This document shows, in pieces, positions 36,132-58,141 of a stretch of 64,000 bases of DNA (position 1 is the stretch's first letter; the number at the start of each line of letters is the position of its first letter). Location: contig NZ_KQ954254.1 of NCBI RefSeq assembly GCF_001519065.1, positions 62,001 through 126,000 on the forward strand. The letters run 5' to 3'. This DNA comes from Novosphingobium sp. FSW06-99 (lineage in GTDB: Bacteria; Pseudomonadota; Alphaproteobacteria; Sphingomonadales; Sphingomonadaceae). The notes beneath the pieces are model-generated. The model worked only from the letters and a program-made list of their open reading frames with translations, ran no database searches and was not told where the DNA came from. The position numbers and the translations under genes were made by a program.

Positions 36132-36213
36132 AGATCTGGAACGGTAGTCAGCCCTTTGACACCGGAGCCTTTGCATTCCATTCTTGGGTCATCTGCGACA
36201 AAGGGCCGAACCA

Positions 36214-38724
36214 ATGTTGACCAGCCTGCTGGCGTGGCCCGGCAAAAGCCCGCGGGACGAGGGTGGGGTGTTTCACCCGGCCGCCTATCATATGCTCGAC
36301 GTGGCGGCCGTGGCGGTGGAATTGCTGGCGGTGCCCGGGCTGGGGCCGGGGCATACGCTCGCTCGGGATGCGCGCGATGCGCTGGTGTTGCTGACCGCGC
36401 TGCACGATCTGGGCAAGATCAACCCCCGCTTTCGCGCGATGCTGCTGCAAGGCGACAGCCAGGGGACCAAGCGGCATTGGGAGGTTTCCGAAGCCTATCT
36501 GTGCGCCAGCGACATCCAGCGCGATCTGGCCGCGCATCTCGATTGTTCGCGTTTTGCGCTCGAACCTTTGGCCTCGGCCACGGCGGGCCATCATGGGCGC
36601 CCGGCGCGGATCGACAAACAAAGTCTGAAAGAACTGGTCGCGGGGCAGGGGGCCGGGGCGTTGGACGATGCCCGCGCGCTGGTGGCCGCGCTGTGCGCGC
36701 TGTGGCCCGATGCGCGGTTGACCGGTTGGAGCGCAGCGCAGGCGCGTGCGCTCAGTTGGTGGTTTGCCGGGCTGGTAACCGTGGCCGACTGGATCGGGTC
36801 AAACCCCGATTGGTTTGCGCCATGCGCGCCGGGCCCGGATCTGGCCGCCTATTGGCGCATGGCACAGACGCGCGCGGCCTTTGCCGTGACGCAAACCGGG
36901 CTGCTGCCGCCGGGCGTGGTTGATCGTGCGCTGTTCGATTTCGCACTGCGGCCCATGCAGCAGGCGGCATCGCGCGTGCCCTTGCCCGATGGCCCCACGC
37001 TGGTGTTTGTCGAAGATGAAACCGGCGCGGGCAAGACCGAGGCGGCGTTGATCCTGGCCCAGCGGATGCTGTTGGCCGGGCATGGGGCAGGGCTGTTTTT
37101 CGCGCTGCCAAGCATGGCCACCGCCGATGCCATGTTTGCGCGGGTGGAACAGCAGATCGGGCGGATGTTTGTCGCCCCGCCCTCGCTGGCGCTGGCGCAT
37201 GGCCGGGCGGCGCTGTCGGCACGGTTTCGCGCCTTGCGCGATCGCGCGGCGGTGTCTGATGATGTGGTCTGTGGCGAATGGATCGGCGATAACCGCCGCC
37301 GCGCGCTGTTGGCCACGATTGGCGTGGGCACGGTCGATCAGGCGCTGTTGGCGGCCTTGCCCACGCGCTTTGCCACGCTGCGCCATTGGGGGCTGGCGGG
37401 CAAGATCCTGATCGTGGATGAAGTGCACGAACTGGGCGATGCCTACATGGACGAAGAGCTGCGCCAGCTTTTGCGCCTGCACGCCATGGCGGGCGGCTCG
37501 GCCATTCTGATCACGGCGACCCTGCCACGCCATCAGCGCATGGCGCTGGCCCAGGCCTTTGCCCAGGGGGCAGGGCAGGCCATGCCGATCGATGATGATC
37601 CGGCCTATCCCGCGCTGACCGTGGCGGGCGGGGCGGCCTTACGCGATTTTCCGCCACGCCTGGCCGAAAAAGGGGTGGTGGGTATCGAGCGGCTTGGCAG
37701 TGTCGAGGCCGCGCTCGATTGCCTGGCCGAGGCGGCGGGGCGAGGGGTGGCCTGTGTATGGGTGCGCAATGCCGTGGATGATGCGATTGCCGCGCGCGAG
37801 GCGCTGCGCGCGCGCGGGATCGAGGCCGACCTGCTGCACGCCCGTTATGCCCTGTGCGATCGCAAGCGGATCGAGGCGCGGCAGATGGCGCGCTTTGGCC
37901 GCGATGGGGATGATCGCGCGGGCCGGGTGCTGATCGGCACGCAAGTGCTGGAATCGAGCCTCGATCTCGATTTCGATGTGATGATCAGCGATCTGGCGCC
38001 GATGGCCGCCCTGATCCAGCGCGCCGGGCGATTGTGGCGCCACATGGCCCGGCGGCCCGCCCCGGATCGGCCCGTGCCGGCCCCCGTGCTGCACGTCGTG
38101 TCGCCCGACCCGGCGCAAGTCGAAGATGCACGCTGGCTGCAGGCGCTGCAACCGGGGGGCGCCTTTGTCTATCCCGTGGCCGATCAGTGGCGCACTGCCG
38201 ACACGCTGTTTCGCGCAGGGCAGATCGTCGCGCCCGCCGATCTGCGTGGGCTGATCGAGGCGGTGCATGGTACCGAACCCGGCCCCATTCCCACCGCGCT
38301 GGATGCCGCCGAGCAAGAAGCCGATGGCGAACGCATGGCCCGCGCCAGCCACGGGCGGCAGAATGTGATCAAACTGGGCGAAGGCTATCGCGGCGGCGGC
38401 GGGGGCGAGGACGATCGCGAATATCCCACTCGCCTTGGCCGGGAAACCCGCACGCTGTTGCTGTTGCGCCCCGACCATACACCATGGGCGCAAGAGGCGG
38501 GTGCCAGCATGATCGAGCGCGAAGCCCTGAGCGAGGTCAGCGTGGCCGCATCGCGCCTGCGCGGGCTGAACCTGCCGGGCGGGGACGATCCGGCGTGGCG
38601 TGCGCTGACCGCCGACTGGCCGGGCTGGCGCCGGGCCAGCGTAACGCCCTGTGTGGTGGGCGACGATGGGGTGATTGTGCCTGGATTGCGCTATCGCGCT
38701 GATACCGGGCTGATCCTTGGCTAG
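36214..38724 (+). CDS. cas3: CRISPR-associated helicase/nuclease Cas3 (type I-E)
   Basis: Cas3 is recruited by Cascade to degrade target DNA, with an N-terminal HD nuclease and a superfamily 2 helicase. In the 836-residue product the HD motif is ALHDLGKIN (about residue 64). The Walker A-like DETGAGKTEAAL is near 270, the DEVH box in IVDEVHELGDAYMD near 402, and motif III ITATLPRHQR near 433. The ATG at 36214 with AAAGGG upstream was preferred over 36184. It lies 82 bp after array 1; a 124-bp promoter-bearing gap separates it from casA. Confidence 0.95.
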   Translation: MLTSLLAWPGKSPRDEGGVFHPAAYHMLDVAAVAVELLAVPGLGPGHTLARDARDALVLLTALHDLGKINPRFRAMLLQGDSQGTKRHWEVSEAYLCASDIQRDLAAHLDCSRFALEPLASATAGHHGRPARIDKQSLKELVAGQGAGALDDARALVAALCALWPDARLTGWSAAQARALSWWFAGLVTVADWIGSNPDWFAPCAPGPDLAAYWRMAQTRAAFAVTQTGLLPPGVVDRALFDFALRPMQQAASRVPLPDGPTLVFVEDETGAGKTEAALILAQRMLLAGHGAGLFFALPSMATADAMFARVEQQIGRMFVAPPSLALAHGRAALSARFRALRDRAAVSDDVVCGEWIGDNRRRALLATIGVGTVDQALLAALPTRFATLRHWGLAGKILIVDEVHELGDAYMDEELRQLLRLHAMAGGSAILITATLPRHQRMALAQAFAQGAGQAMPIDDDPAYPALTVAGGAALRDFPPRLAEKGVVGIERLGSVEAALDCLAEAAGRGVACVWVRNAVDDAIAAREALRARGIEADLLHARYALCDRKRIEARQMARFGRDGDDRAGRVLIGTQVLESSLDLDFDVMISDLAPMAALIQRAGRLWRHMARRPAPDRPVPAPVLHVVSPDPAQVEDARWLQALQPGGAFVYPVADQWRTADTLFRAGQIVAPADLRGLIEAVHGTEPGPIPTALDAAEQEADGERMARASHGRQNVIKLGEGYRGGGGGEDDREYPTRLGRETRTLLLLRPDHTPWAQEAGASMIEREALSEVSVAASRLRGLNLPGGDDPAWRALTADWPGWRRASVTPCVVGDDGVIVPGLRYRADTGLILG

Positions 38725-38783
38725 TTGCGCTGCGAATTATAAATCGTTTGCAGACACTATTTTGGAATCAGTTGGGATCAGTA

Positions 38784-38811
38784 TTGACACGTAATCGGTG
38801 TGACCGATAAG
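38784..38811 (+). promoter_or_regulatory. Candidate Cascade-operon promoter with internal operator
   Basis: TTGACA (38784-38789) and GATAAG (38806-38811) are 16 bp apart. Between them sits the perfect inverted repeat ATCGGT-GTG-ACCGAT (38794-38808). Placement inside the promoter suggests an operator. A direct repeat of ATCAGT lies just upstream. The start point is inferred. Confidence 0.55.
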
Positions 38812-38848
38812 CCTGTTCCGCAACGGCAAAGACGTGAGCGGGCGAGGC

Positions 38849-40401
38849 ATGTTCAATCTTCTGCACGAATATTGGATTCCCGTCATTACACGCACCGGGC
38901 GGCGCCTGATCCGCCCGTTCGATATTGTCGATCCGGCCGTGTTGTGGCCCGATTGGCCGCGCGCGGATTTGAATGTGGCCTGTCTGGAACTTCTGATCGG
39001 CATGGTGGCCATGGCCGATCCGCCACGCGATCCCGAAGATTGGGATGCCCGCCGCCGCCCCGATGCGGCCCGTTGGGCCGAGCGGCTTGGCGCCTTTGCC
39101 GATGCCTTTGCGCTGGATGGGCCGGGCCCGCGTTTCATGCAGGATCTCGAACCGTTTGAAGTGGGCGTGAAACAGCCCGGCTCTGTCGATATGCTGTTTA
39201 TCGATTCCGCTGGGGCAAATGCGACTCCCAATAACACCGATTTGATGGTGCATCGCGGTCGCTATGCCGATTTGTCGATGGGCGAGGCCGCCATGGCGTT
39301 GTTTACGCTTCAGGCATATGCGCCTGAAGGGGGGCGGGGATATCTTACTTCGCTCCGCGCAGGTGGGCCCTTAAGCACGCTGGTTGTTCCGGGTGGTGAG
39401 CCCAATCTGTTCGATGTGATTTGGGCTAATGTGCCCGATGGGCGACCAGGAAATCCTGACGATTTGCCATGGATGAAGCAAACTCGCGCGTCAAAAGTTT
39501 ACCCGCCTGCGATGGAGACTTTTAGCGCGGTCGAAGTTTTTTTCGGAATGCCGCGTAGAATACGGCTGATTTTCAGTGAAGATCGAGTTGTTGGGGTTGA
39601 GCAGCGTCAGTATGGAAATAAATATGAAGGATGGGTCCACCCACTCTCGCCATACTATCGTAATAAAGCCGGAGAGATGGCGTTTTGCCAGCGTGCTGCA
39701 ACGTGGAATGCGGGGTATCGTAATTGGCTTGGTGTCGTTTGTCAGGCTGACGATGCCTATTTGCGCGATAGAGCATTAGCGCTACGACAATATGATAACC
39801 GCGCAGATTTCGATGAAAAATATTCGGTTCTTGTGAGTGGATGGGCAACAAATAGCGCAAAAATACTTGATTTTGTTTGGTCTCGAGAGCCAACATTTGT
39901 CTTATCAGACACGAAATCCGCAATTTTGCGAGGTGTCATACGTGCCGCTGAGGTCGCTCAAAATGAAATGATAAGTCTCATGGCAATATTGAGTGGTGCA
40001 CGAAGGAAGGCAGAATTAAAGTCCAAGGGTCTACCACAAGATTATAAGCCCTCAGATTGGAAATGGGGAGGATCTTGCGAAAGTAACATGGCCGACGCCT
40101 TTTACGTCAACACAGAAGCTGCGTTTCTCGAGCATATGGTTTTGATCCGTCAGGGAATTAGTGTGGGCGAGACATGGCTGGCAGTATTGCGTGATATGGT
40201 GCTAAATCTCTTCAATCATGAAGCGGCTAGAGCTTTTACCTCTCAAGATGCTGCTCGCATCCACCGAGCACTTTTCGTGCGAGAGCGTCTGCTGTCCATG
40301 CTGGGCGGATATTCGAAATCGGGTGTGGCGCTGTACGAGCATTTGCGGCTCGAACCGCCAAAGCCTGCAGCCAGACCGGCCAAAGCAAAGGGGATAGCAG
40401 C

Positions 40402-40405
<4 letters not shown>
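38849..40405 (+). CDS. casA: Cascade large subunit Cse1/CasA (Cas8e)
   Basis: Cse1 recognises the PAM and recruits Cas3. The 518-residue protein begins MFNLLHEYWIPVITRTG, as is typical; a GTG five codons upstream (38834) is possible. The middle holds the family pattern DLMVHRGRYADLSMGEAAMALFTLQAYAPEGG, and later WVHPLSPYYRNKAGEM. From about 39300 to 40300 the DNA is clearly richer in A+T than the start of this gene and than its neighbours (by hand count, 23 G/C of 60 at 39841-39900), yet the frame stays open. This suggests that part of the gene was replaced by recombination. Confidence 0.93.
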
Positions 40406-42728
<2,323 letters not shown>

Positions 42729-42732
<4 letters not shown>

Positions 42733-46013: not shown

Positions 46014-46157
46014 AACGCACCGGAGGGTACCGCACGCGGGGGGCGGCGTTTCAAAAATGATCGATATAAGAGGCATAAAGTCCATATTTGGAGGTTATAA
46101 CAGTCATTATCTTGCCTTTTCACACCGTGCCCGTTATTGGTGGGGTTGGAGAAGGCG

Positions 46158-46493
46158 ATGAACCACCATCCGCGCACGTATTCACGCGTCACGCATCAAA
46201 CGCTGGCCTTGCTGGGCGGGCGCATTCGCCTTGCGCGCAAGCAGCGCAAGATGTCCGAGGCGGATCTGGCCGAGCGGGTCGGGATCGCGCGCAGCACTTT
46301 GCAGGCGATAGAGAAGGGCCATCCCACGGTCGAAATCGGGCTGGTGTTCGAGGCGGCGACGCTGGTCGGGGTGCCGCTGTTTGTCGATACCCCTGCGCGT
46401 CTTGGCACAGAGCTGGCGCGGGTCAGCGAAACCATGGCTTTGCTGCCACGGTCGGTGCGCCGCGCGCGCGGGGATCTGAACGATGATTTCTGA
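46158..46493 (+). CDS. XRE-type helix-turn-helix protein (HipB-like antitoxin)
   Basis: The 111-residue protein has an XRE helix-turn-helix in the middle (RIRLARKQRKMSEADLAERV, then GIARSTLQAIEKGHPTVEIG). The start ATG at 46158 has GGAGAAGG just ahead; 46137 is an alternative. It overlaps the hipA-like gene by 11 bases. In HipBA systems the small HTH protein binds the kinase and represses the operon. That role is inferred from the pairing. Confidence 0.8.
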   Translation: MNHHPRTYSRVTHQTLALLGGRIRLARKQRKMSEADLAERVGIARSTLQAIEKGHPTVEIGLVFEAATLVGVPLFVDTPARLGTELARVSETMALLPRSVRRARGDLNDDF

Positions 46494-47772
46494 GGCGGGG
46501 CGCGCACGGGTCGAGCCGGGCGAGGCCTTTGTCTGGATCTGGCTGCCGAGAGCGATGCAGCCGGTGATTGCGGGCCGGATCGTGCGTGATGGCGACACCT
46601 ATGCCTTCAATTATGGCCGGTCGTATCTGGCGCGGGCCGATGCCGTGGCGATCTATGCGCCGGAATTGCCGCTGCGGCGCGGGCTGATCGAGCCAGAGCC
46701 GCCGCTGGAGATGGCCGGGTGCCTGCGCGACGGCGCGCCCGATGCATGGGGGCGGCGGGTCATCATCAACCGGCTGACCGGGTTGGGGGGTGAGGCGGCG
46801 CACCAGGTCGATTTTGACGAGCTGACGTTCATGCTCAATTCCGGATCGGACCGGATTGGCGCGCTCGATTTCCAGCTTTCGGCAGAGCGCTATCAGCCAC
46901 GCGAGCAGGAAAATGCAACGCTGGACGATCTGATGGACGCGGCCGACCGGGTCGAGCGCGGCGAACCCGTACCACCCGCGCTCGACAAGGCGCTGTTTCA
47001 CGGCAGCTCGATCGGGGGGGCAAGGCCCAAGGCTCTGGTCGAAGATGGGCGCGACAAGTTCATCGCCAAATTTTCGAGCACCGGCGACACGATGTCGGTG
47101 GTCAAGGCGGAATTTTTGGCGATGCGGCTTGGTGCGGAGCTGGGGCTGGATGTCGCGCCTGTGCGTCTTGCGCGGGCCAGTGGCAGGGATGTCTTGCTGG
47201 TGCGCCGGTTTGACCGGGAATGGACCGGCGAGGGCTGGGCGCGGCGCGGCATGGTGTCGGCGCTGACCATGCTGGGCCTTTCCGAAATGCAGGCGCGCTA
47301 TGCCAGCTATGGCGATCTGGCCGATCTGGTGCGCGCGCGCTTTACCGAGCCACGAGCTACCTTGCGCGAGCTGTTTGGCCGCATGGTGTTCAATGTGCTG
47401 ATTGGCAATACCGATGATCACGCGCGCAACCACGCTGCATTCTGGGACGGCGCGCGGCTGACGCTGACCCCGGCCTATGACTTGTGCCCTCAACCGCGCG
47501 GCGGACGCGAGGCCAATCAGGCCATGCTGATCCATGGGCCAGACAAGCGCAGCCTGCTGGAAACCTGCCGCCTGTCTGCGCCCCAATTCCTGCTGAGCGA
47601 CAACGATGCGCGCGCGCTGATCCGCGCGCAGATCGGCGGGATCATGGCGCAATGGAACAGCATTTGCGACGAGGCGGAACTGGGCACGATCGATCGCGCC
47701 TTTCTGTGGCGGCGCCAGTTTCTTAACGACTATGCGTTCGAGGGTTATATCGACGGCGCGCCCGGGCTTTGA
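46483..47772 (+). CDS. HipA-family serine/threonine kinase toxin
   Basis: The 429-residue protein matches the HipA family. The N-terminal subdomain has MAGCLRDGAPDAWGRRVI, the P-loop-like GSSIGGARPKALV and the lysine of FIAKFSS. The catalytic NVLIGNTDDHARNHAAFWD carries the expected aspartate, and PAYDLCPQ is the metal-binding DFG-like motif. Classical HipA phosphorylates glutamyl-tRNA synthetase and causes dormancy. The substrate here is unknown. Confidence 0.88.
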   Translation: MISEAGRARVEPGEAFVWIWLPRAMQPVIAGRIVRDGDTYAFNYGRSYLARADAVAIYAPELPLRRGLIEPEPPLEMAGCLRDGAPDAWGRRVIINRLTGLGGEAAHQVDFDELTFMLNSGSDRIGALDFQLSAERYQPREQENATLDDLMDAADRVERGEPVPPALDKALFHGSSIGGARPKALVEDGRDKFIAKFSSTGDTMSVVKAEFLAMRLGAELGLDVAPVRLARASGRDVLLVRRFDREWTGEGWARRGMVSALTMLGLSEMQARYASYGDLADLVRARFTEPRATLRELFGRMVFNVLIGNTDDHARNHAAFWDGARLTLTPAYDLCPQPRGGREANQAMLIHGPDKRSLLETCRLSAPQFLLSDNDARALIRAQIGGIMAQWNSICDEAELGTIDRAFLWRRQFLNDYAFEGYIDGAPGL

Positions 47773-48001: not shown

Positions 48002-48190
48002 TCAGCCCAGATGAAGACCGTTGAGCCAGGCATCGATGGCACTCTGCCGCCATCCGACACAGCGTTCAGCGATACGGATCTGACGCGGGAAAGTGCCAGC
48101 CTGCATCCTGCGATAGAGCGTCGCCCGGCTGAACCCGGCGATCTTGAGAACCGCCCTGAGGCGCAAAATGCGGTCGGGTGCCGTGTCCAT
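48002..48190 (-). CDS. AlpA-family transcriptional regulator
   Basis: This 62-residue protein has the MerR-like AlpA pattern: LRLRAVLKIAGFSRATLYRR, then a basic turn and RIAERCVGWRQSAIDAWLNG. AlpA proteins control integrase or excision genes of P4-like and CP4-57-like elements. It is 8 kb from the island integrase and on the same strand. It probably regulates an element gene; the target cannot be seen. Confidence 0.85.
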   Translation of the reverse strand: MDTAPDRILRLRAVLKIAGFSRATLYRRMQAGTFPRQIRIAERCVGWRQSAIDAWLNGLHLG

Positions 48191-48607
48191 GATGAGGTCT
48201 CCATTGGTGTTGTCCGATGGGCTTCATGCAGTATCTGGCGAACCCGCTGGAGAGACTTTACCCGGCCAGAGATGGCCAGTTTCAGCCATTCGATTGGCAC
48301 CTGGGACCAGGGCGCCTGTTTGCAGCAATCGCGCGTGACGCGATCGGGTCGGACAAGGGCTGGGTCATGCGGACGGCGCGCCTGGGCGCGCCGGCGTTGG
48401 GCCTTGCGGCCCCGGTCGGCCGGGTGGGCGTCGCTGCCCGTTAGACCCGGCGCGGCATGCTGCAACCCCGGCTGCGCCGGGGTGCTCCTCTTCGTTCCGC
48501 CCCCTTTGGGGTGCAGCCCGCCTCCTCGCCGGGCCTGCTGGTCCGCTCCTGCCGCCCACCCGCCCGACCGGCGCCGGGTCATGGCGGTTTGGGAGAGGAG
48601 GTGGATC
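48191..48607. other. Region upstream of ardC with a GC-rich hairpin
   Basis: No supported gene is found. CCCCGGC-TGC-GCCGGGG (48466-48482) is a perfect 7-bp hairpin. The rest is GC-rich and holds the ardC ribosome site (GGAGAGGAGG, about 48592-48601). Function is unknown. Confidence 0.5.
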
Positions 48608-49591
48608 ATGGCCATGTTTGGTGCGCATGCGCAGCGTTGCGTGGCGAGGGTTGCAGGGGCTGGTGAAGCACGGCCCCGGCCCATGGAGGAACTCTACGAC
48701 CGGGTGACCCGGCGGATTGTCGCCGAGCTGGAGGAAGGGCGACTGCCATGGGTGCAGCCATGGAATAGCGCAACAGTGCTGGCGGGCCTGCCGTGCAATG
48801 CGGTGAGCGGTCGGGCCTATTCGGGGATCAATATCCTGATCCTGTGGCACGCGCTGTTCGAAGGCGGGTTTGCCGCGCAACGCTGGCTGACGTTCAGGCA
48901 GGCCGAGGCGCTGGGCGGGCACGTCCGCAGGGGCGAGCGGGGGGTGACGGTCTGCTATGCCGATCGCTTCACGCCGAAGGACGCGCAGAACGGCGAGGGA
49001 GGCACGCCTGCCAGCGATGGCGAAGCCGTGCGGCAGGTGGCATTCCTCAAGCGCTTTACCGTGTTCAATGTCGCGCAATGCGAAGGCCTGCCCGATGCAT
49101 TGACCTTGCCCGAGGGTGATACGCCGCGCGGCGATGCGGTCACGGTGCCCGAAGCCGAGGCGCTGGTTGCAGCAAGCGGGGCGCGGGTCTGCATCGGTGC
49201 ACCCCATGCCTGCTATGTGCCATCGGCAGACCGGGTCGAAGTGCCACTGCCGCGGGCCTTCGGCGAGCCGATCAATTTCTATCGCACCGTGCTCCACGAA
49301 CTGGGCCACTGGACCGGGCACCCGACCCGGCTTGATCGCGACCAGTCAGGCCGCTTTGGCAGTGCAGCCTATGCACGCGAGGAACTGGTTGCCGAACTGT
49401 GCAGCGCCTTTGCCTGTGCCGCGATGGGGATCGTGCCGACCGTGCGGCATGCCGACTACATCGGTGCATGGCTGGAAGTGTTGCGCGCCGATAACCGCGC
49501 GATCTTTCGGGCCGCCAGTCAGGCCAGCAAGGCCGCCGATTACCTGCTGGCATTCCGGCCGCAGGCAAGCGCGCCGGAGGCAGTGCCGTGA
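48608..49591 (+). CDS. ArdC-like antirestriction protein / zincin-like metallopeptidase
   Basis: ArdC proteins of conjugative elements bind single-stranded DNA and protect incoming DNA from restriction. The 327-residue product has the N-terminal DNA-binding domain (about 25-160: LYDRVTRRIVAELEEGRLPW and VQPWNS, then SGRAYSGINILILW). A C-terminal M78-like peptidase carries the HExxH motif in VLHELGHWTGHPTRLDR. The ATG at 48608 follows a strong ribosome site. The stop overlaps the next gene. It marks this part of the island as derived from a mobile element. Confidence 0.9.
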   Translation: MAMFGAHAQRCVARVAGAGEARPRPMEELYDRVTRRIVAELEEGRLPWVQPWNSATVLAGLPCNAVSGRAYSGINILILWHALFEGGFAAQRWLTFRQAEALGGHVRRGERGVTVCYADRFTPKDAQNGEGGTPASDGEAVRQVAFLKRFTVFNVAQCEGLPDALTLPEGDTPRGDAVTVPEAEALVAASGARVCIGAPHACYVPSADRVEVPLPRAFGEPINFYRTVLHELGHWTGHPTRLDRDQSGRFGSAAYAREELVAELCSAFACAAMGIVPTVRHADYIGAWLEVLRADNRAIFRAASQASKAADYLLAFRPQASAPEAVP

Positions 49592-49904: not shown

Positions 49905-50798
49905 ATGCGCACCGATCTCGACCATCTGCCACAGCCCAAGCAGCGCGAGCTTGAGCATGTCGTGCGGGTGATCTTCGAGGAATTCGAGGCCGCCCATGCG
50001 CTGGGCACGCTTCGCTGGAAGAAGCAGGGCCGCATTCTCAAGCTGGTGCTCTATGGCAGCTATGCGCGGGGCGGCTGGGTCGATGATCCCATCGGCGGCT
50101 ACAAGTCCGATTACGACATCCTTGTCGTCGTCAACGACGAGCGGCTGGTCGATTTCGAATACTGGTCGGCAGCCGAGGACCGGCTGATGCGCGACATGAC
50201 CATCACCGGCACGCTGTCGGCACCGGTCAATCTGATCGTCCATTCGCTGACCGACGTGAACCAGCAACTGGAGAAGGGGCGACCGTTCTTCATCGACATC
50301 GTGCGTGACGGGATTGCGCTCTACGAGGCCGAGGGCTTTTGCTTCGCCCAGCCGCGCGACCTTCCGCCCGAGGAGGCCAGGGCAGAGGCGCTGGCCCATT
50401 TCGACAAGTGGTTCCCGAGCGCCGATGCTTTTTTGGCGTCTGCAAAGTTCTTGATTGAGCGCGGCGACACAAACGAGGCGGCATTCAATCTACATCAGGC
50501 TGCCGAGCGACTGTACCACTGCGCGCTGCTGGTGCTGACCCTTTACAGCCCCAAGTCGCACAAGCTCAATTTCCTGCGCTCGCATGCCGAGGAACTGGCC
50601 CCCGATCTGGTTGCCGCCTGGCCGCGCAGCGACAAGGTCAGCCGGCGCCGCTACGAGCTGCTACGCCAGGCCTATGTCCATGCGCGCTACTCACCCCATT
50701 ACGTCATCACCGAAGAGGAGCTCCTCTGGATCGCCGAACGGGTCAGCGAATTGCAGCGTCTCGTTGACGCCGTTTGCCGTCGTCACCTCGACCTGTAG
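49905..50798 (+). CDS. Fused MNT nucleotidyltransferase-HEPN protein
   Basis: The 297-residue protein joins two halves of a toxin-antitoxin type. The N-terminal MNT nucleotidyltransferase has LYGSYARGGWVDDP and the metal-binding pair in YKSDYDILVVV (about residues 48-78). The C-terminal HEPN domain (about 170-290) includes AAFNLHQAAERLYHCALLVL and RRRYELLRQAYVHARYSPHY. In two-gene systems MNT modifies and neutralises the HEPN RNase. Fusion suggests built-in control. A strong terminator follows. Confidence 0.85.
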   Translation: MRTDLDHLPQPKQRELEHVVRVIFEEFEAAHALGTLRWKKQGRILKLVLYGSYARGGWVDDPIGGYKSDYDILVVVNDERLVDFEYWSAAEDRLMRDMTITGTLSAPVNLIVHSLTDVNQQLEKGRPFFIDIVRDGIALYEAEGFCFAQPRDLPPEEARAEALAHFDKWFPSADAFLASAKFLIERGDTNEAAFNLHQAAERLYHCALLVLTLYSPKSHKLNFLRSHAEELAPDLVAAWPRSDKVSRRRYELLRQAYVHARYSPHYVITEEELLWIAERVSELQRLVDAVCRRHLDL

Positions 50799-51213: not shown

Positions 51214-52110
51214 TCAATGCTTGAAGCAATTGTCGCGATGCCATGCGAGGAAACTCGGGTGTGGGCGATCCATCGTGCGGGACGGAGCCACGGCAAAACC
51301 GGTCCGGTTGACAAGCGACCGTATGCTCGCCGGATCGTTCGTTTGCCGGCTGATCATGATCTCCAGGTCGTCCTTCAGGCTGATCAGACCACGATCGAAC
51401 ATCCAGTGGACCGTGCCCGAAAGCGCGATGCCGTTGCTCACGATATCGGGCCCGCCATGTTCAACGGGACGGATGTGGGCTGCTTCGACTTCGGCCCTGC
51501 CACCACCGTTGATCAGCTTCAAACCGGTCACTGCACAACGCGCATCATAGGCGGTGACAATGCGCCGCCGGAACAGGCGATCGCGCACCATGCGTGACGC
51601 CAAAAACGCCACCCGATCGCGCTCAATTTCGTGCTGAAAGGGCACGCGCTCCTGCCGGAAACTGTTGCCCGCATCGCTGTCGACACGGGGCAGAAAGTCG
51701 TCGTTTTCGGCCGTGCCGAGGTCGATGATCCGGTTGAAATCGGCGATCGAAAGCGGCCGCACGGCCGATTGCGCCCGTCCGGAAATCCGTCCGGCATCAT
51801 TGAGAACCCCGCGCTCGACGATGCCGGTTGCGCCATTGAAAGGCACGTGATTGACGAAGTCGAGATAGGTGCCTGGCTCGATCAGCGCGAGGTACATATC
51901 GGGCGCCGTTGGGTCCGGCACGACTTGCTCGACCTTGGCCGTCGCGAAATAGCCACGGCTGCCGCGCACCTTGCCGGGCTCAAGGTAGATGATCCAGTCG
52001 CCGATGCAGGCGCTCGCGCGACCCAGGTATTGCTTGGGGAACTGGTATTGCACGGCTGGGCTGTCATCGTAGATCGAATCCGATCGATGCATGAAGATGC
52101 CCTTTGCCAT
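51214..52110 (-). CDS. HNH endonuclease
   Basis: The 298-residue protein has a C-terminal HNH nuclease domain: CAVTGLKLINGGGRAEVEAA, then HIRPVEHGGPDIVSNGIALS and HWMFDRGLISL. The N-terminal part (about 1-130) has a beta-rich pattern (DWIIYLEPGKVRGSRGYFAT) that could be a DNA-recognition or SRA/YTH-like domain. No methyltransferase is adjacent, so it may be a modification-dependent nuclease. This is inference from the lone nuclease. Confidence 0.82.
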   Translation of the reverse strand: MAKGIFMHRSDSIYDDSPAVQYQFPKQYLGRASACIGDWIIYLEPGKVRGSRGYFATAKVEQVVPDPTAPDMYLALIEPGTYLDFVNHVPFNGATGIVERGVLNDAGRISGRAQSAVRPLSIADFNRIIDLGTAENDDFLPRVDSDAGNSFRQERVPFQHEIERDRVAFLASRMVRDRLFRRRIVTAYDARCAVTGLKLINGGGRAEVEAAHIRPVEHGGPDIVSNGIALSGTVHWMFDRGLISLKDDLEIMISRQTNDPASIRSLVNRTGFAVAPSRTMDRPHPSFLAWHRDNCFKH

Positions 52111-52315: not shown

Positions 52316-52543
52316 GTGCCGCTACTGAGAGTGTCCGACTATTTTGGGAGCCGACATTCGGCGGTTGTTCGCACCACCGACAGTTATTTGGGCAAGCTGC
52401 GTCGCACGCTTGATGACGCGGGAGAGGCTGGAATGCCCCAAAAGCGTTTGCTGCGTTCGCTAAACCACACCGGAGATGCTCGCATCTTTCCTACTCCGAA
52501 AGATTCGACTATATTGGGAGTTGAAATGAAGGAGCCGAAATGA
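52316..52543 (+). CDS. Possible small protein coupled to the NUDIX gene
   Basis: This 75-residue frame (GTG start) has a stop that overlaps the NUDIX ATG (ATGA at 52540-52543). It is soluble and basic, with SYLGKLRRTLDDAGEAGMPQ and LLRSLNHTGDARIF. I recognise no family. The start is uncertain; an internal ATG at 52433 is another choice. A near-repeat (CGACTATTTTGGGAG / CGACTATATTGGGAG) occurs inside it at both ends, so it might instead be a regulatory region. Confidence 0.35.
   Translation: MPLLRVSDYFGSRHSAVVRTTDSYLGKLRRTLDDAGEAGMPQKRLLRSLNHTGDARIFPTPKDSTILGVEMKEPK
52336..52350 (+). repeat. Direct repeat copy 1 upstream of the NUDIX gene
   Basis: CGACTATTTTGGGAG matches CGACTATATTGGGAG at 52506-52520 in 14 of 15 bases. 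Both stand on the same strand, 170 bp apart. They could be promoter or operator elements. Confidence 0.55.
52506..52520 (+). repeat. Direct repeat copy 2, 20 bp before the NUDIX start
   Basis: CGACTATATTGGGAG contains the -10-like TATATT and lies 20 bases before the ATG at 52540. See the copy at 52336-52350. Confidence 0.55.
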
Positions 52544-53001
52544 CCAGAATGTGGATTCACAAGGTCGGACTGGCGGCCATCAGCGACGGCCATTTGCTCG
52601 TTGCCAGGAAGCGTAAATCCGACATTTTTATCCTTCCTGGGGGTAAGCCCGAGGGGAACGAGAGCGATCTTGAAACCCTCGCGCGCGAGATTGACGAGGA
52701 ACTGGGGTGCCGGATCGTCGATCCGTGTCTTTTGCGCGTCTTCAAAGATGTGGCCGCAGGCGTCGCCGACTCGGTCGTTGTTGTCCGCCTTTATAGCGCC
52801 ACGCTTGTCGGTGAGCCGCAGCCGTGCTCGGAGATCGAAGAGCTCGCTTGGATCAATATCCGCTCGCCCCGCGCCATCCGTCTGGCGCCGAGCATCGAGA
52901 ACGGAATTCTACCCTACCTCCGCAAGCGAAGACGTTCAAAGACCGGATCGGCCCGCCGAGCGCCCGACGAAGCCGTCCAGGGCTTGCTGGAGCTCATTTA
53001 A
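52540..53001 (+). CDS. NUDIX hydrolase
   Basis: The 153-residue protein holds a full NUDIX box: GGKPEGNESDLETLAREIDE followed by ELG, with the metal-binding glutamates in place. NUDIX enzymes cleave nucleoside diphosphates linked to another group; the substrate here is unknown. GGAG lies near the start codon. The 3' 66 bases overlap a convergent kinase gene. Its placement next to a nucleotide-kinase-like gene suggests shared nucleotide metabolism. Confidence 0.85.
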   Translation: MTRMWIHKVGLAAISDGHLLVARKRKSDIFILPGGKPEGNESDLETLAREIDEELGCRIVDPCLLRVFKDVAAGVADSVVVVRLYSATLVGEPQPCSEIEELAWINIRSPRAIRLAPSIENGILPYLRKRRRSKTGSARRAPDEAVQGLLELI

Positions 53002-53496
53002 CGTACCGTCATTGCCGAGAGTGTAATCGGCTGCCGCCATGAGCGCGGCTGTTCCCAGCAACTCGATTTCGTAGCGGTCGCGTATTTCGAGATCCTCCGG
53101 GCTCAGCGGTCGCAGCGTTCGCGCGGACAAGCGGTTGGCGCGTTTTTCGAGAGCGGTCTCCACGGCGACAGTCACAAGCCTGTTACCAAATGCTTCGCGA
53201 TAAATTTCACTTTCCTCAGCGCAGTAGATCGCATCCACTAACGCCGTGCCTCTCGCAGACAGGACAGAGCGGATCGTCGGCAAAGCCCGACTTGCAAGAG
53301 CGCCCATTCCCTCTGCCTGACGAAGTTCGTCACGAACAAGCCTCTCACTGGCCGCCGTCCGAGGCAATTTCCGCCGTTCAACTTCGGCTGTGACAATCGC
53401 TCCGACATAAACCCGCATGCCAAAGCCGCGCTGCTCAAGGATCTCGATAGAGGTCGTTTTCCCCGCCCCAGCAAGACCGCACAGTCCAACAAGCAC
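52936..53496 (-). CDS. P-loop kinase (dephospho-CoA/nucleotide kinase-like)
   Basis: The 186-residue protein begins with a P-loop, MLVGLCGLAGAGKTTSIEIL. The middle has a lid-like ALEKRANRLSARTLRPLSPE, and the end AADYTLGNDGTLNELQQALD resembles the tail of dephospho-CoA kinases and related nucleotide kinases. It is a lone divergent copy rather than the housekeeping enzyme. It is followed by the 3' end of the convergent NUDIX gene and lies 7 bases after the DUF3850 gene. Confidence 0.75.
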   Translation of the reverse strand: MLVGLCGLAGAGKTTSIEILEQRGFGMRVYVGAIVTAEVERRKLPRTAASERLVRDELRQAEGMGALASRALPTIRSVLSARGTALVDAIYCAEESEIYREAFGNRLVTVAVETALEKRANRLSARTLRPLSPEDLEIRDRYEIELLGTAALMAAADYTLGNDGTLNELQQALDGFVGRSAGRSGL

Positions 53497-53503
53497 GGCC
53501 GCT

Positions 53504-53842
53504 TCAGGCGTCCGTAAGATGAGCGATGCTCAAAATGCAGAAGTCTGGACTCAGGGCCTCTTCTGAAAGCGCGCACGGACGGTCGGCCGAGGTGATGTAA
53601 GTCACGACGACCTTCTGCTCCCGACCCGTGTAGCAACCGCGCACCGGGTCGAATTCTCTCAGCAGGAGGCGATCGCCGGCGCGAAAATCGCGATCGGTGG
53701 CCCGGCGGAGGTCATGCCGTTTTCTACCCTCGGCGATTTCGGTGAAAAACGCGGTCCAGCACTTCAGCACGTGAGTGGTCGCTTCCCGCTCCCCCTCGCG
53801 TCTGAATCCCGGGGTGTTCGCCAAGCGCCGTTCAAGCATCAA
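53504..53842 (-). CDS. DUF3850 (ASCH/PUA-like) protein
   Basis: The 112-residue product has the DUF3850 pattern: a helix ending in EGRKRHDLRRATDRDFRAGD, the strand RLLLREFDPVRGCYTGREQK and VVVTYITS. ASCH/PUA-fold proteins bind RNA or modified bases. It lies 10 bases after the FAD protein gene and 7 before the kinase gene, so the three form a likely operon. Confidence 0.75.
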   Translation of the reverse strand: MMLERRLANTPGFRREGEREATTHVLKCWTAFFTEIAEGRKRHDLRRATDRDFRAGDRLLLREFDPVRGCYTGREQKVVVTYITSADRPCALSEEALSPDFCILSIAHLTDA

Positions 53843-53852
53843 GTCTCATTCC

Positions 53853-56036
53853 TCATGCGCCTGGAGGCGTGGTTGCATCAGTCGTAGCGGGCGCAAGATC
53901 TGTGTGGTCAAAGTTTAGCACGAACTCGCGTAACACCAAAGGCGGTTCGACGTTTTCCACGATCGTCAGGGCGGTGGTGCCCGACGTTTCGGCCGCAGAC
54001 GCACACGCCGAATCGAGGAGCGGCTCGAGCTGGACATTCCGCAGTCGACCGAGCGAAATGCCGTTGGGAGTCTCCACGGACCGCGCCCATGCCTGAAGCA
54101 CTGCGCAAACTTCCCCGATCATATCGTCGTTGAGGAAAAAAGCCTCGTCGCGACTGTCGAGATACAAAATGGCGGTAACTGGACTTGGCGCATAGTGTCG
54201 ATGCTCAGGCTGGAGGATTGGGATCGCCAAGACAAACCTAACTTCTGGCATCATCTTGCGCGCAGCTTCATGCAGCTTGAGGTCGGCCATTCCGGCCTGA
54301 AGATCCTCAGCCTTTACATCTTTTAGCGTTCGGACGATCCGACGTGTTCGATAGGCCGCCCCAATGGTCGCAGCGGTTGCGGGAAAAGTTCTCCCGGCCG
54401 TCGCACTCGCCTTTTCCAATCCTTTTCCGAGATAGTCGCAAGCCTGCTGGAGAAGGTCATCGCCGTGGATCGAGAGCGTCCGGTGCAGAGTGACGCGAAA
54501 GTGCTTAGCTGCTGGCTGCATGCGCTCGACGACGCCGACAATAGCGCCACAGAGGCTAGTGGCGACAAGCGCCGTCGGCCCGGGCAGATATTCCTTGCGC
54601 CATTCGCGGCGCTGCTCGTCACCGATGGTGCCGGTGTCTTGTTCCCGCCCAGTATAGCCAAAATATCCGCCCGGCCACATTGGCAGGGCAGTTTGTAATC
54701 CGAAGGTTTTCGGATCGGTGCTGCGTTGCTGTTCGATGCGTCCAAACAATTTATCAGGAAGCATGCGCTTCAGATGGTCAAGTGGACGCACGCCGTGCCG
54801 CTCGATCACGGTGTCGTTCTCGATTGCAAAGCGCGCTTTCAACGCCTGCGTCTTCTCAGTCGAGGGTGCAAAGCCGCCGCATCGATAGAGTAGGAAGACG
54901 AGTAACGCGTTTTGAAAAGACATGCGGCTGGTCGCCGGCTCGAGCAGTTCCGCGACGTTGCGTACTAGGAGTTGTAGGACGACGTCCGTATCTCGTCTCA
55001 ATCGCCGATCAAGCTTGGCGATTACCGCCAACATGTCATCGCGATGGGGAGATTTTTCGGACAGGAGCGCTTCAAACCGGTCGAACAAACCCGTCGCTTC
55101 ATTGAGGAAGTCTTCCCGCATAGCCTTTAGTTCGGCAACGAGGCCGGCCCTGTTGCCAAAAAGCTCTTCCAGAATGCGATCCTGCCGGAATTGCGAGATA
55201 CGAATGCGCAGAAGGTCGATCATCGCCCCGTCTCCCTGCCCGGACAGCAGGAACGTCCGCCGGGGCTCATTCAGGCTGGGCTGTCCGAGCGTCTCGTTGC
55301 GCCAGTAGGAAGCCTTGCTTGCTTCGAGGCCGAATCCAACCGCAAGCACGACGGCGTCAAAGACCTCCGAAGACCCACGCGCGGCGCCCTCCGTTTCGCG
55401 GATCGTACCATCGGCAGCTCGGCGCTTTTCGCCCACCCACTCGATTCGGGCCTTGCGCTTATCCTGTTCACACGGCGTAAGCTGAAGGTGTCGAGTGTTA
55501 CAAAACAGATGGACCGACTCCTCGTTCTCGACTATTTGAGCCCACTCGCCCAGTACCTGAACGACAACGTCCGAAGACCTTGCCGCAGTCCAGTTAAGAA
55601 CCGGAAGCATCGCGGCGCTGGCCTCGCTTCCGTCAGCGGGCCAGTCATAGATGTGCGGGTGTAGCCAGCGGGTGTCGCTTCCCTGCTGAAGCGGTAAAAG
55701 CGTGTCGCGCTGCTCGAAGATATATAGCTCACAAGCCGCCCCTTTGCGAAGCAACCCTGCTGCGAACGTCAGGCCAGCAAAGCCTGCGCCGACAACCGCA
55801 ATACGGCACGGCGGATCACTCCTCTGCACGGGCACGATGCCGGTCTCGATGAGCGACCAAGCGAGATTGAGAGCCCGAGTTTGCTGACTGAGCACTGTCA
55901 CCCTGCTATCGAAGGAACCGAGCGCATACAGGGCTGGCTTGTGGTCCAGCAGGTGCGAGGATGCGGTGGTGCCCGCAAGTCTATTGCGCCGTATTACGCC
56001 TTCCGAGGCTGGGATTCCGCTCATTGTACTACCCAT
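53853..56036 (-). CDS. Large FAD/NAD(P)-binding oxidoreductase with C-terminal GAF-like domain
   Basis: The 727-residue protein has an N-terminal FAD site IAVVGAGFAGLTFAAGLLRK (about residues 78-97), then TRWLHPHIYDWPADGS and a second dinucleotide-binding stretch AVVLAVGFGLEASK. A long helical middle follows (about 280-500). The C-terminus (about 590-680) has VRFVLAIPILQPEHRHYAP and TAILYLDSRDEAFFLNDDMI, resembling a GAF sensor domain. ATGs at 56036 or 56024 could start it. I know no characterised member. It leads the DUF3850-kinase operon, and the DNA is less GC-rich than the PGC. A sensor-oxidoreductase role is inference. Confidence 0.7.
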   Translation of the reverse strand: MGSTMSGIPASEGVIRRNRLAGTTASSHLLDHKPALYALGSFDSRVTVLSQQTRALNLAWSLIETGIVPVQRSDPPCRIAVVGAGFAGLTFAAGLLRKGAACELYIFEQRDTLLPLQQGSDTRWLHPHIYDWPADGSEASAAMLPVLNWTAARSSDVVVQVLGEWAQIVENEESVHLFCNTRHLQLTPCEQDKRKARIEWVGEKRRAADGTIRETEGAARGSSEVFDAVVLAVGFGLEASKASYWRNETLGQPSLNEPRRTFLLSGQGDGAMIDLLRIRISQFRQDRILEELFGNRAGLVAELKAMREDFLNEATGLFDRFEALLSEKSPHRDDMLAVIAKLDRRLRRDTDVVLQLLVRNVAELLEPATSRMSFQNALLVFLLYRCGGFAPSTEKTQALKARFAIENDTVIERHGVRPLDHLKRMLPDKLFGRIEQQRSTDPKTFGLQTALPMWPGGYFGYTGREQDTGTIGDEQRREWRKEYLPGPTALVATSLCGAIVGVVERMQPAAKHFRVTLHRTLSIHGDDLLQQACDYLGKGLEKASATAGRTFPATAATIGAAYRTRRIVRTLKDVKAEDLQAGMADLKLHEAARKMMPEVRFVLAIPILQPEHRHYAPSPVTAILYLDSRDEAFFLNDDMIGEVCAVLQAWARSVETPNGISLGRLRNVQLEPLLDSACASAAETSGTTALTIVENVEPPLVLREFVLNFDHTDLAPATTDATTPPGA

Positions 56037-56467: not shown

Positions 56468-57700
56468 TCAGATCGCCACCGTCGCCGGAAACGGCAAGAT
56501 TGTGGCCCCATTGCGCAAGCTATCCAAAAGGTCCGACCACCATTGGGCCATTGCGACACGTTCCTTCCAGTGCGTGCCACGGTGGTAGGCGGCGCGCACC
56601 TTGTCGCTGTCACCATGCGCCAATGCCCGTTCGATGGCGTCCGATGACCACTTCCCCGATTCGTTGAGCAATGTGCTCGCCATTGCCCGAAATCCATGCG
56701 CGGTCATTTCGTTGGTGGAATAGCCCAACCGGCGTAGCGCCGCATTCAAGGTGTTCTCCGACATCGGGCGCGCCCGTGACCGCATCGACGGAAAGACGTA
56801 GCCCGCTGCGCCCGTGATTGACCGGATCTCGTTCAGGATCGCGATGGACTGGCGTGACAACGGTACATGGTGCGGCTTGCGCATCTTCATCTTCTCGGCC
56901 GGGATGATCCACACGGCAGCCTCGAGGTCGATTTCGTCCCATCGCGCGTGGCGCAGCTCCCCTGGCCGGACGAACACATGTGGGGCGAGTTGCAGCGCCC
57001 ATTTTGTCATGCCCTGCCCTTCGTACCCTTCGATCGAGCGCAGGAGATTGCCCACCTCGGTGGAATCGGTAACCGCTCCATAGTGGGTGACGGTCGGCGT
57101 CGTCAGGGCTCCGCGCAGGTCGCGGGTCGGATCGGACTTGAGGCGGGCCGTGGCCACAGCATAGCGGAACACGGCGCTGGCCAGTTGCAGGGTACGCCGC
57201 GCACTTTCGAGCTTGCCGCGCTTTTCGATCTTGCGGATTGCCGCAAGGGCATCGATCGGCTCGATCTCGTGGATTGGCATCCGGCCAATCGAGGAGTCCA
57301 GCAAACTGAGCAGATATTCGCAGCGCGTTGCCGTGGCTACCGCCCAGGCCCTGTCGCCATCCCGTCGACGCTTGCGGCAATATTCGGCCGCGATGCTGGT
57401 GAAGGTGTTTTCAGCCAGCGCGCTCGCGCGCAGCTTGTCACGTTGCCTCTCGATCGCGGGGTCCTTGCCTTCGGCGATCAGGTCCCGCGCTTCGTCACGC
57501 TTCTTGCGGGCATCGCGCAGGCTCACCTGGGGGTAGGTCCCGAAGCTGAGCTTCTTTTCCACGCCAGCGTAGCGATACTTCATCCGCCAGAGTTTTCCAC
57601 CCGACGGTTGGACCAGAACGAACAGGCCCTGCATGTCGCACAGCTTGTAGGCCTTCTGGCGGGGCTTGGCGCTCCGAATCGCTATATCTGTCAAAGGCAT
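56468..57700 (-). CDS. P4-type tyrosine recombinase (island integrase)
   Basis: The integrase cuts and joins DNA at the tRNA attachment site. The 410-residue protein has the DUF4102 N-terminus (MPLTDIAIRSAKPRQKAYKL), an SAM-like core-binding domain and a catalytic domain. The arginine is in FVRPGELRHARW, the lysine in KMKMRKPHHVPLS, the HxxR in HGFRAMAST, and the tyrosine in AAYHRGTHW. All key residues are intact. It starts 197 bases from the tRNA-Gly 3' end, the usual geometry for such islands. Confidence 0.93.
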   Translation of the reverse strand: MPLTDIAIRSAKPRQKAYKLCDMQGLFVLVQPSGGKLWRMKYRYAGVEKKLSFGTYPQVSLRDARKKRDEARDLIAEGKDPAIERQRDKLRASALAENTFTSIAAEYCRKRRRDGDRAWAVATATRCEYLLSLLDSSIGRMPIHEIEPIDALAAIRKIEKRGKLESARRTLQLASAVFRYAVATARLKSDPTRDLRGALTTPTVTHYGAVTDSTEVGNLLRSIEGYEGQGMTKWALQLAPHVFVRPGELRHARWDEIDLEAAVWIIPAEKMKMRKPHHVPLSRQSIAILNEIRSITGAAGYVFPSMRSRARPMSENTLNAALRRLGYSTNEMTAHGFRAMASTLLNESGKWSSDAIERALAHGDSDKVRAAYHRGTHWKERVAMAQWWSDLLDSLRNGATILPFPATVAI

Positions 57701-57896
57701 AGACCGGGCCCTTCATTGGCGTGGCCCCTGGGGTTGGGGGCCACGGACAAGAATCGGCCGGTAAATCTCGCAAAGTGGCCCCCATCTGTGAGAGCTGTCC
57801 TGGAATTCCACGCGATCCAACGAGCCGAACGACCCGAAAATTACCGCGGATTTCCTAGGGTTGCAAAGGGGGTGGGGATGTCCTGAGACCGGAAAC

Positions 57897-57914
57897 TGGA
57901 GCGGGTGAAGGGAA
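57897..57914. repeat. Right attachment site inside tRNA-Gly
   Basis: TGGAGCGGGTGAAGGGAA is the 3' end of the tRNA gene (CCA end, acceptor and T-arm) and matches the decayed copy at 33719-33735. It is the likely attR of the 24-kb island. Confidence 0.7.
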
Positions 57915-57970
57915 TCGAACCCTCGTCGTAAGCTTGGGAAGCTTCTGCTCTACCATTGAGCTACACCCGC
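57897..57970 (-). tRNA. tRNA-Gly (anticodon CCC)
   Basis: Read on the minus strand, the acceptor GCGGGTG (57970-57964) pairs with CACCCGC (57907-57901), followed by T and an encoded CCA. The D-arm is GCTC-AATGGTA-GAGC. The anticodon loop TTCCCAA gives CCC. The T-arm contains GGTTCGATTCC. The gene is intact despite island insertion because the element carries the 3' end. Confidence 0.93.
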
Positions 57971-58141
57971 CCGTTGTCCGGGCAGGGGCCCCATCGCATG
58001 GGGTGGGGGTTTGCGTCAAGCGGGGGTGTGGTGGGTTGGCGTGTTTAGGGTGGGGTGCCCGCATGGGTCGGGCGCAATGGTCTTGACCGGGGCCGGGCGC
58101 AGCGGGCACACGGGCGCTGCCAACTACTATGGAGGGGCCTG

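Follow-up and report, generated by a model that had tools for sequence, protein, structure and literature searches.

Here, we identify a four-gene cassette in a 64,000-nucleotide stretch of DNA from Novosphingobium sp. FSW06-99 (positions 62,001 to 126,000 of contig NZ_KQ954254.1; hereafter, the window). The cassette encodes a protein predicted to join a flavin/NAD(P) oxidoreductase to a GAF domain (FAD-GAF), a DUF3850 protein, a P-loop nucleotide kinase, and a NUDIX hydrolase. Sequence comparisons indicate that the four genes travel as a mobile cassette between bacteria, plasmids, and predicted viral DNA. We suggest that this cassette is most likely anti-phage and that its flavoenzyme would serve as an effector gated by the GAF domain through a ligand of the nucleotide type, a reading to which we assign a probability of about 0.5.

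An earlier note, made from the sequence alone, had described three minus-strand genes 7 to 10 bp apart that converge with a NUDIX gene, and four open genes are indeed present in this layout (Table 1). The gaps within the minus-strand trio are 10 bp (FAD-GAF/DUF3850) and 7 bp (DUF3850/kinase), the 3' ends of the kinase and NUDIX genes share 66 bp, and positions 52316-52539 are without any gene of the four-gene set. The G+C content of the block is 0.59, against 0.62-0.73 in most 2-kb steps of the window; the stretch at 38-41 kb of the window is as low as the block (0.58-0.60).

Table 1. Features of the cassette and its surroundings in the window, and loci of a related three-gene set
Feature	Position	Strand	Size or residues	Remarks
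FAD-GAF gene	53853-56036	minus	727 aa	
LmuA-like flavin stretch of FAD-GAF	54879-55946	minus	residues 31-386	PADLOC PDLC03858
GAF domain of FAD-GAF	54021-54584	minus	residues ~485-672	fold match
DUF3850 gene	53504-53842	minus	112 aa	ASCH/PUA-like
P-loop nucleotide kinase gene	52936-53496	minus	186 aa	AAA_18; GTG start
NUDIX hydrolase gene	52540-53001	plus	153 aa	convergent with kinase gene
HNH endonuclease gene	51214-52110	minus		neighbor, not a core member
Tyrosine integrase gene	56468-57700	minus		outside the cassette
tRNA-Gly(CCC)	57897-57970			adjoins integrase gene
Flavin three-gene set	L025:6680-11428; L026:2328-7327; L011:4776-9944; L012:4866-10073			grouped by gene order and size only

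The gene content, order, and linkage of the cassette are conserved. Plasmids were searched by tblastn with the FAD-GAF protein, 84,980 species genomes were scanned for patterns with a three-row alignment, and viral contigs were scanned with an alignment (A1). The plasmid search gave two rhizobial plasmids (L006 and L007) that carry all four genes in an identical arrangement. The genome scan, which misses members because it requires exact 8-residue patterns, matched 47 stretches, 11 of which were confirmed as further loci: nine with a fused FAD-GAF protein and two with FAD and GAF as adjacent genes. Scanning the viral contigs with A1 gave two loci (L040 and L041), and searching them with the single FAD-GAF protein gave no confirmed locus. 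The resulting 13 distinct fused loci (the window, L006, L007, L014-L021, L023, and L040) include L018 and L021, which are 98.9% identical to each other and both counted, and leave out L041, whose 12,130-base locus has the same sequence throughout as L020.

First, the DUF3850 gene lies directly downstream of the FAD-GAF gene at all 13 fused loci, and a kinase of either of two types is present at 11 of the 13. This is the opposite of what the earlier note had named as evidence against its reading, i.e., FAD-GAF homologs occurring mostly alone or in metabolic operons, and it bears out the conserved co-occurrence with DUF3850 and the kinase for which the note had proposed a search. The AAA_18 kinase and the convergent NUDIX gene accompany the pair at 8/13 loci. 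The complete set, with its order kept and NUDIX convergent, is thus carried by the window, L006, L007, L014, L015, L017, L020, and L023, i.e., by the window's organism, the Sphingomonas group, the Rhizobium group, and Methylobacterium; at these loci the DUF3850-FAD-GAF gap ranges from -26 to +57 bp. At three further loci (L016, L018, and L021; Pseudomonas and Paraburkholderia), a deoxynucleoside kinase gene upstream overlaps the start of the FAD-GAF gene (PF01712 at 2.2e-7 in L016 and 1.5e-6 in L018; assigned in L021 by homology to both), and neither the AAA_18 kinase nor NUDIX is present. Second, the pairwise protein identities of the four genes over the eight complete loci correlate with r of 0.88-0.97, and in none of the six pairings is the observed value reached by more than 9 of 40,320 label permutations. 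Third, in whole-genome searches (E ≤ 1e-8), the cassette kinase occurs once each in the window's genome and in the genomes of L014, L015, L017, L020, and L023, and it was not found in those of L016, L018, L019, L021, L022, and L024.

The cassette is rare and patchy. Among 396 genomes of the order, full-length FAD-GAF is found only in the window's own genome, and three others match part of the flavin half; among 385 genomes of the class, a count that includes the own genome, it is again found only there, and one other genome has a match at 2.7e-7 over 73 positions with a stop inside. In three pairs (L014/window, L015/L017, and L007/L023), DNA homology between the loci covers the cassette alone or the cassette plus fewer than 200 adjoining bases. 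In the nearest relative found, L014 (81% protein identity), DNA homology with the window is limited to positions 52509-55928. Because the shared DNA of these pairs ends at the borders of the cassette or close to them, we conclude that it moves as one piece into unrelated surroundings, in agreement with the separate transfer that the earlier note had read from base composition. The cassette identical to that of L020 is carried by a 53-kb predicted viral contig (L041), and on the predicted viral contig L040, FAD-GAF and DUF3850 are flanked by portal and head-protease genes. On the latter, 9.3-kb contig, three separate frames match one portal-protein family (phrog_2662; L040:3-4771), which may be an assembly effect or mark a rearranged phage. 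In the window, the integrase gene beside tRNA-Gly marks a likely carrier element, outside the cassette. The far end of this carrier was not found: the 23-base 3' end of tRNA-Gly occurs once in the genome, and no repeat of at least 16 bases from positions 57601-57990 is present elsewhere in the window.

Profile matches and a predicted structure indicate that the N-terminal half of FAD-GAF is a flavin/NAD(P) oxidoreductase of the LmuA (Lamassu/ABC-three-component) effector kind and that the C-terminal half is a GAF domain. The PADLOC model for LmuA, PDLC03858, matches residues 31-386 at 3.7e-73, ending at profile position 351 of 827; we take this flavin LmuA type to be the flavin monooxygenase (FMO) type. 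The flavin half contains the FAD motif GxGxxG at residues 83-88, an acidic residue (E108), and a second dinucleotide motif, SGQGDGA, at residues 265-271, in a flavin monooxygenase-like pattern. GxGxxG, the acidic residue, and SGxGDGA are kept in 11/11 FAD-half rows of an alignment of relatives (A5). The window protein is just under the Pfam cut-offs for FAD families (DAO 1.4e-5, 25.2 vs 27.9 bits), and its relatives in L016 and L020 score above the DAO cut-off. The structure prediction for the 727-aa protein, as suggested in the earlier note, gave an AlphaFold model with a flavoenzyme-like N-half and a GAF-like C-half at a predicted local distance difference test score (pLDDT) of 72. In this model, Foldseek matches the N-half to the flavin monooxygenases DfoA (6e-5), PvdA (8e-4), and FMO5 (1e-3); the N-half also resembles the disulfide reductase YpdA (Z 11.0 over 241 residues, root-mean-square deviation (rmsd) 6.1). 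The C-half has the GAF fold, with PDE6 matched at Z 11.7 over 145 residues (rmsd 3.4), albeit in a model of middling confidence. Pfam gives no GAF match in FAD-GAF of the window, in the other fused proteins, or in L008 and L024, and the only GAF signal at the sequence level is GAF_2 at 0.015 in the GAF half of L022, a relative in which the two halves are split.

The three smaller proteins match Pfam families as the earlier note had called them: DUF3850 (PF12961; 5e-17, 62.3 bits vs a gathering score of 22.9), the P-loop kinase (AAA_18; 1e-8, 36.2 bits vs a cut-off of 29.4), and NUDIX (2.6e-10). The DUF3850 protein also matches the ASCH-type chain 3iuw at 1.7e-13. In the kinase, Walker A and several arginines are invariant; its structural model (pLDDT 91) has a nucleoside monophosphate (NMP) kinase fold related to UPF0200 and adenylate kinase. 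The nearest solved structure is the archaeal UPF0200 protein SSO1041 (3lw7 and 3h0k; template-modeling (TM) scores 0.83/0.90, profile E ~1.6e-15), which is 22% identical to the cassette kinase and has AMP in its crystal title. The Nudix box, of consensus GX5EX7REUXEEXGU, is intact at residues 35-57 of the window protein, and R49, E50, E53, E54, and G56 are invariant in 8/8 rows. PHROG profiles match the kinase (phrog_10255 "kinase", 1.3e-11), the DUF3850 protein (phrog_986 "RNA-binding protein", 3.9e-24), and the NUDIX protein (phrog_1198, 1.1e-12), and none matches FAD-GAF; in PADLOC, the NUDIX protein matches the candidate model PDC-S07 at 1.1e-11 and the DUF3850 protein matches nothing. The idea that a sensor-like redox protein is joined with nucleotide-handling enzymes is supported by the conserved linkage.

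Defense-type genes are found near the cassette or its split relatives at several loci. L006 has a type IIG restriction-modification enzyme and an LmuA/LmuB pair as neighbors; L016, DISARM-type genes; L017, a helicase named ZacC by PADLOC; L020 and L023, full anti-phage dCTP deaminases; L021, an endonuclease-effector domain; and L007, a restriction-type HNH nuclease. DndH-like ATPases are located near L022, L023, and L024, a phospholipase D (PLD) nuclease recognized by Pfam only, without a PADLOC match, is near L008, and the window has type I-E cas genes (Cas3, Cas8e, Cas7e, and Cas5e; 36184-42732). A match to candidate PDC-S02/PD-(D/E)XK in L018 and a weak E1-E2 match in L021 were not counted as defense. 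From this neighborhood and the logic of the domains, we infer a defense function.

The cassette differs from the systems it most resembles. With Lamassu/ABC-three-component systems it has in common the flavin/NAD(P) N-half (PDLC03858), whereas its GAF C-half, the lack of an adjacent LmuB or LmuC, and the constant DUF3850, kinase, and NUDIX set it apart. Scans of seven genes around the block with Pfam and PADLOC gave no LmuB, and with a differing C-terminal part and the flavin domain alone shared, we rejected membership in Lamassu. According to a review, a double-Rossmann dehydrogenase domain is listed among the LmuA effector domains (PMC10586767). A second point of comparison is Kongming (KomABC), in which a nucleotide signal produced through a kinase acts on an NAD-consuming effector (PMC12774641, PMC12948488); according to one of the two reports, the signal is dITP, and its kinase-dependent synthesis triggers NAD depletion (PMC12774641). 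The resemblance of the cassette to Kongming would be one of this logic only. However, in Kongming the deoxynucleotide kinase is that of the phage and the effector is an NADase, whereas the cassette has its own kinase and a putative flavoenzyme effector, and no sequence relation was seen. Kongming consists of the deaminase KomA, KomB, and the SIR2-like KomC; because neither Pfam nor PADLOC matched a SIR2 or deaminase domain in the seven genes scanned, it was rejected on composition. Models of anti-phage dCTP deaminases match the cassette kinase weakly with their N-terminal part (4.2e-6 in PADLOC; 1.7e-5 in NCBIfam, far under the cut-off), outside the deaminase part; the cassette has no deaminase, and depletion of deoxynucleoside triphosphates is not implied. 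DUF3850 is a separate small gene in the cassette, whereas another report describes this Pfam family as fused to a CTPase fold (PMC12704722). The suggestion in the earlier note that no named defense system has this composition holds insofar as PADLOC gives the four proteins no common system, but not for the flavin half, which has a name (LmuA). In the titles and abstracts of the literature searched, the four-gene set is not described, and we use "undescribed" within that scope.

We suggest the following model. The effector would be the flavin half, an FMO-like oxidoreductase that uses NAD(P)H, and the switch would be the fused GAF domain upon binding a small ligand. The kinase would make or complete this ligand, and DUF3850 would be a co-sensor or a signal-processing enzyme. 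The presence of a different nucleoside kinase at loci that lack the cassette kinase points to a nucleoside or nucleotide as the ligand, most likely one whose pool shifts upon breakdown of host DNA by a phage or upon phage synthesis of modified nucleotides. NUDIX would erase the ligand and thereby keep the effector off in healthy cells. Once triggered, the flavoenzyme may drain reducing power or form toxic oxidized products, causing a growth stop. In its specific form, i.e., a new class of nucleotide-signaled immunity with a redox flavoenzyme as the effector, in which an infection-altered nucleoside or nucleotide is phosphorylated by an exchangeable NMP or deoxynucleoside kinase of the cassette, read by GAF, and quenched by NUDIX, the model is tentative, and we consider it somewhat doubtful in this full detail.

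Several observations weigh against an anti-phage cassette of this kind. The neighbors given to PADLOC were chosen, mostly large genes without matched control loci, so that the enrichment for defense genes is uncontrolled. The nearness to other defense genes claimed in the earlier note stands at several loci and fails among the genes tested in L014 (four), L015 (one), and L019 (three), which have no PADLOC match. Moreover, L015 adjoins lepA, L019 is near a malate/lactate dehydrogenase gene, and ABC transporter genes flank L007, with a 1-aminocyclopropane-1-carboxylate (ACC) deaminase gene past its HNH gene. Neither kinase type nor NUDIX was detected at L019 and L040, and these proteins are thus not indispensable; the split relatives L008, L022, and L024, in which FAD and GAF are adjacent genes, have no DUF3850; and kinases of this family are also found outside the cassette. 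Finally, the FAD-GAF model is of middling confidence also in its overall arrangement (predicted TM score 0.50), Foldseek gives only local matches to it (TM ≤0.24, best E 6e-5), and LPLQQGSDTRWLHPHIY (residues 114-130), the stretch best conserved in the family, is poorly predicted.

The main rival is a core resembling a toxin-antitoxin pair, in which FAD-GAF would be toxic, DUF3850 would be its antitoxin or a regulator that senses RNA or nucleotides, and the kinase and NUDIX would be optional tuning genes. DUF3850 is the sole constant partner, small, and adjacent to or overlapping FAD-GAF; L019 and L040 show just this pair; and, according to one report, a bacterial ASCH protein acts as an RNA-binding ribonuclease (PMC5615036). 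However, the antitoxin gene would then come after the toxin gene rather than before it, DUF3850 is missing in the three split relatives, and the tight coupling of the kinase and NUDIX with the other two over eight loci argues that they are more than accessories. We consider this alternative unlikely. We similarly see little likelihood in a role without defense, namely salvage or sanitation of nucleobases or nucleotides on mobile DNA, in which the flavoenzyme would oxidize or reduce a modified base, the kinase would salvage it, and NUDIX would clean the pool. The partners are plausible nucleotide enzymes, and some loci have metabolic flanks; upstream of the cassette in L014, the nearest relative, a PfkB-nucleoside deoxyribosyltransferase fusion and an 8-oxoguanine-glycosylase-like gene are present (L014:4409-7441). 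By contrast, the rarity, patchiness, and cassette-wise transfer described above, and the flavin half being otherwise part of ABC-three-component systems, do not fit salvage. A Lamassu offshoot relying on LmuB/LmuC encoded elsewhere would account for the LmuA match and for the LmuB gene near the cassette in L006, but it is highly improbable, as the LmuB of L006 is paired with an LmuA of a different type (PDLC03848), the LmuB model gives in the window's genome a weak match of 50 positions (1.3e-4) in a 1154-aa frame and also matches in 14/14 control genomes, and the C-terminal part of LmuA is replaced by GAF.

Relatives of the flavin half occur in other gene sets. Among plasmids, 28 records have a related flavin half, which in 12 of them is annotated as an ABC-three-component system protein. 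Two records are the full cassette and four are from Sinorhizobium medicae (L008, the one examined, is of the split type); of the other 22, five were examined (L009-L013), comprising two ABC-three-component systems, two cases of another three-gene set, and one without a recognized partner. In L009 and L010, the flavin half is beside an "ABC-three component system middle component 1" and an AAA ATPase. The other three-gene set consists of a flavin protein (533-604 aa) and two partners of 253-287 aa and 779-885 aa, and the four partner proteins in L011 and L025 have no Pfam match. As for the weaker flavin-half matches in the order (L003-L005), two are in a set like that of L011/L012, judged by gene sizes only, and the third (L027) is unplaced. 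In L022:7995-15206 and L024:6682-13977, the split FAD and GAF genes are accompanied by a convergent gene of 86 aa and by a protein of 1561-1567 aa whose C-terminus is a DndH/HerA-like ATPase; this looks like a second, larger system with the FAD+GAF pair.

The kinase family, in turn, recurs in nucleotide-centered settings, i.e., weakly in the dCTP deaminase models, with GTP cyclohydrolase II, and with methyltransferase and radical SAM genes. Its profile has matches in seven of the 396 genomes of the order, including the window's own and one with a standalone gene next to GTP cyclohydrolase II (G145); the remaining five are C-terminal domains of 625-649-aa proteins. These proteins (L032-L036) have a C-terminal kinase fold, and the one scanned with Pfam (L032) has an N-terminal RNase_H_2. 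The L020 kinase matched three records among 72,556 plasmids (E 0.001), two of them L006 and L007, and the window kinase had no tblastn match at E 0.01 in 50,697 phage records. In the window's genus, L039:6977-9499 combines a kinase of the cassette family with GTP cyclohydrolase II (4e-35) and an NTPase_1 protein (4.5e-27) that has an apparently hydrophobic N-terminus, and a gene that by its appearance is an integrase gene lies ~80 bp from the set; this is possibly another nucleotide-centered conflict system. On a Nostoc plasmid (L028:4995-7099), a kinase of the family lies between DNA methyltransferase and B12-binding radical SAM genes, and helicase genes flank this group on either side; it may be another modification or defense set.

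The window has further genes of interest near the cassette. We rejected the HNH nuclease as a fifth member, as among the loci examined it is beside the cassette only in the window and in L007 (a 66% homolog); its C-terminus in the window resembles a phosphorothioate-DNA restriction enzyme, under the cut-off of that model. A single gene at 49905-50798 encodes a nucleotidyltransferase-like and a HEPN domain (HEPN 4e-13), by appearance the halves of a HEPN-MNT pair in one protein. The plasmid-type gene at 48011-49591, within the island, encodes an ArdC-type anti-restriction protein (ArdcN 1.5e-38) that also has a zincin-like domain, and at 46137-47772 a helix-turn-helix gene (118 aa) overlaps a 429-aa gene in an arrangement that appears HipBA-like, with weak PADLOC candidates only. 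Frames with the repeated peptides GSSPHARGT/FIPARAGN near 34.5-36.1 and 44.8-45.5 kb, which flank the cas genes, look like translated CRISPR repeats.

Altogether, we rate the cassette as a nucleotide-centered conflict system of known domains in an undescribed, mobile combination. Here, an effector domain of Lamassu/ABC-three-component flavoproteins appears to be used without an SMC-like sensor, with a small-molecule sensor domain fused to it instead. With just four proteins, the cassette is a compact starting point for learning how such flavoenzymes act on the cell, and the replacement of the cassette kinase by a deoxynucleoside kinase makes the identity of the ligand directly testable. If our model is correct, it would add a redox effector to nucleotide-signaled immunity, besides a nuclease, an NADase, or a pore.

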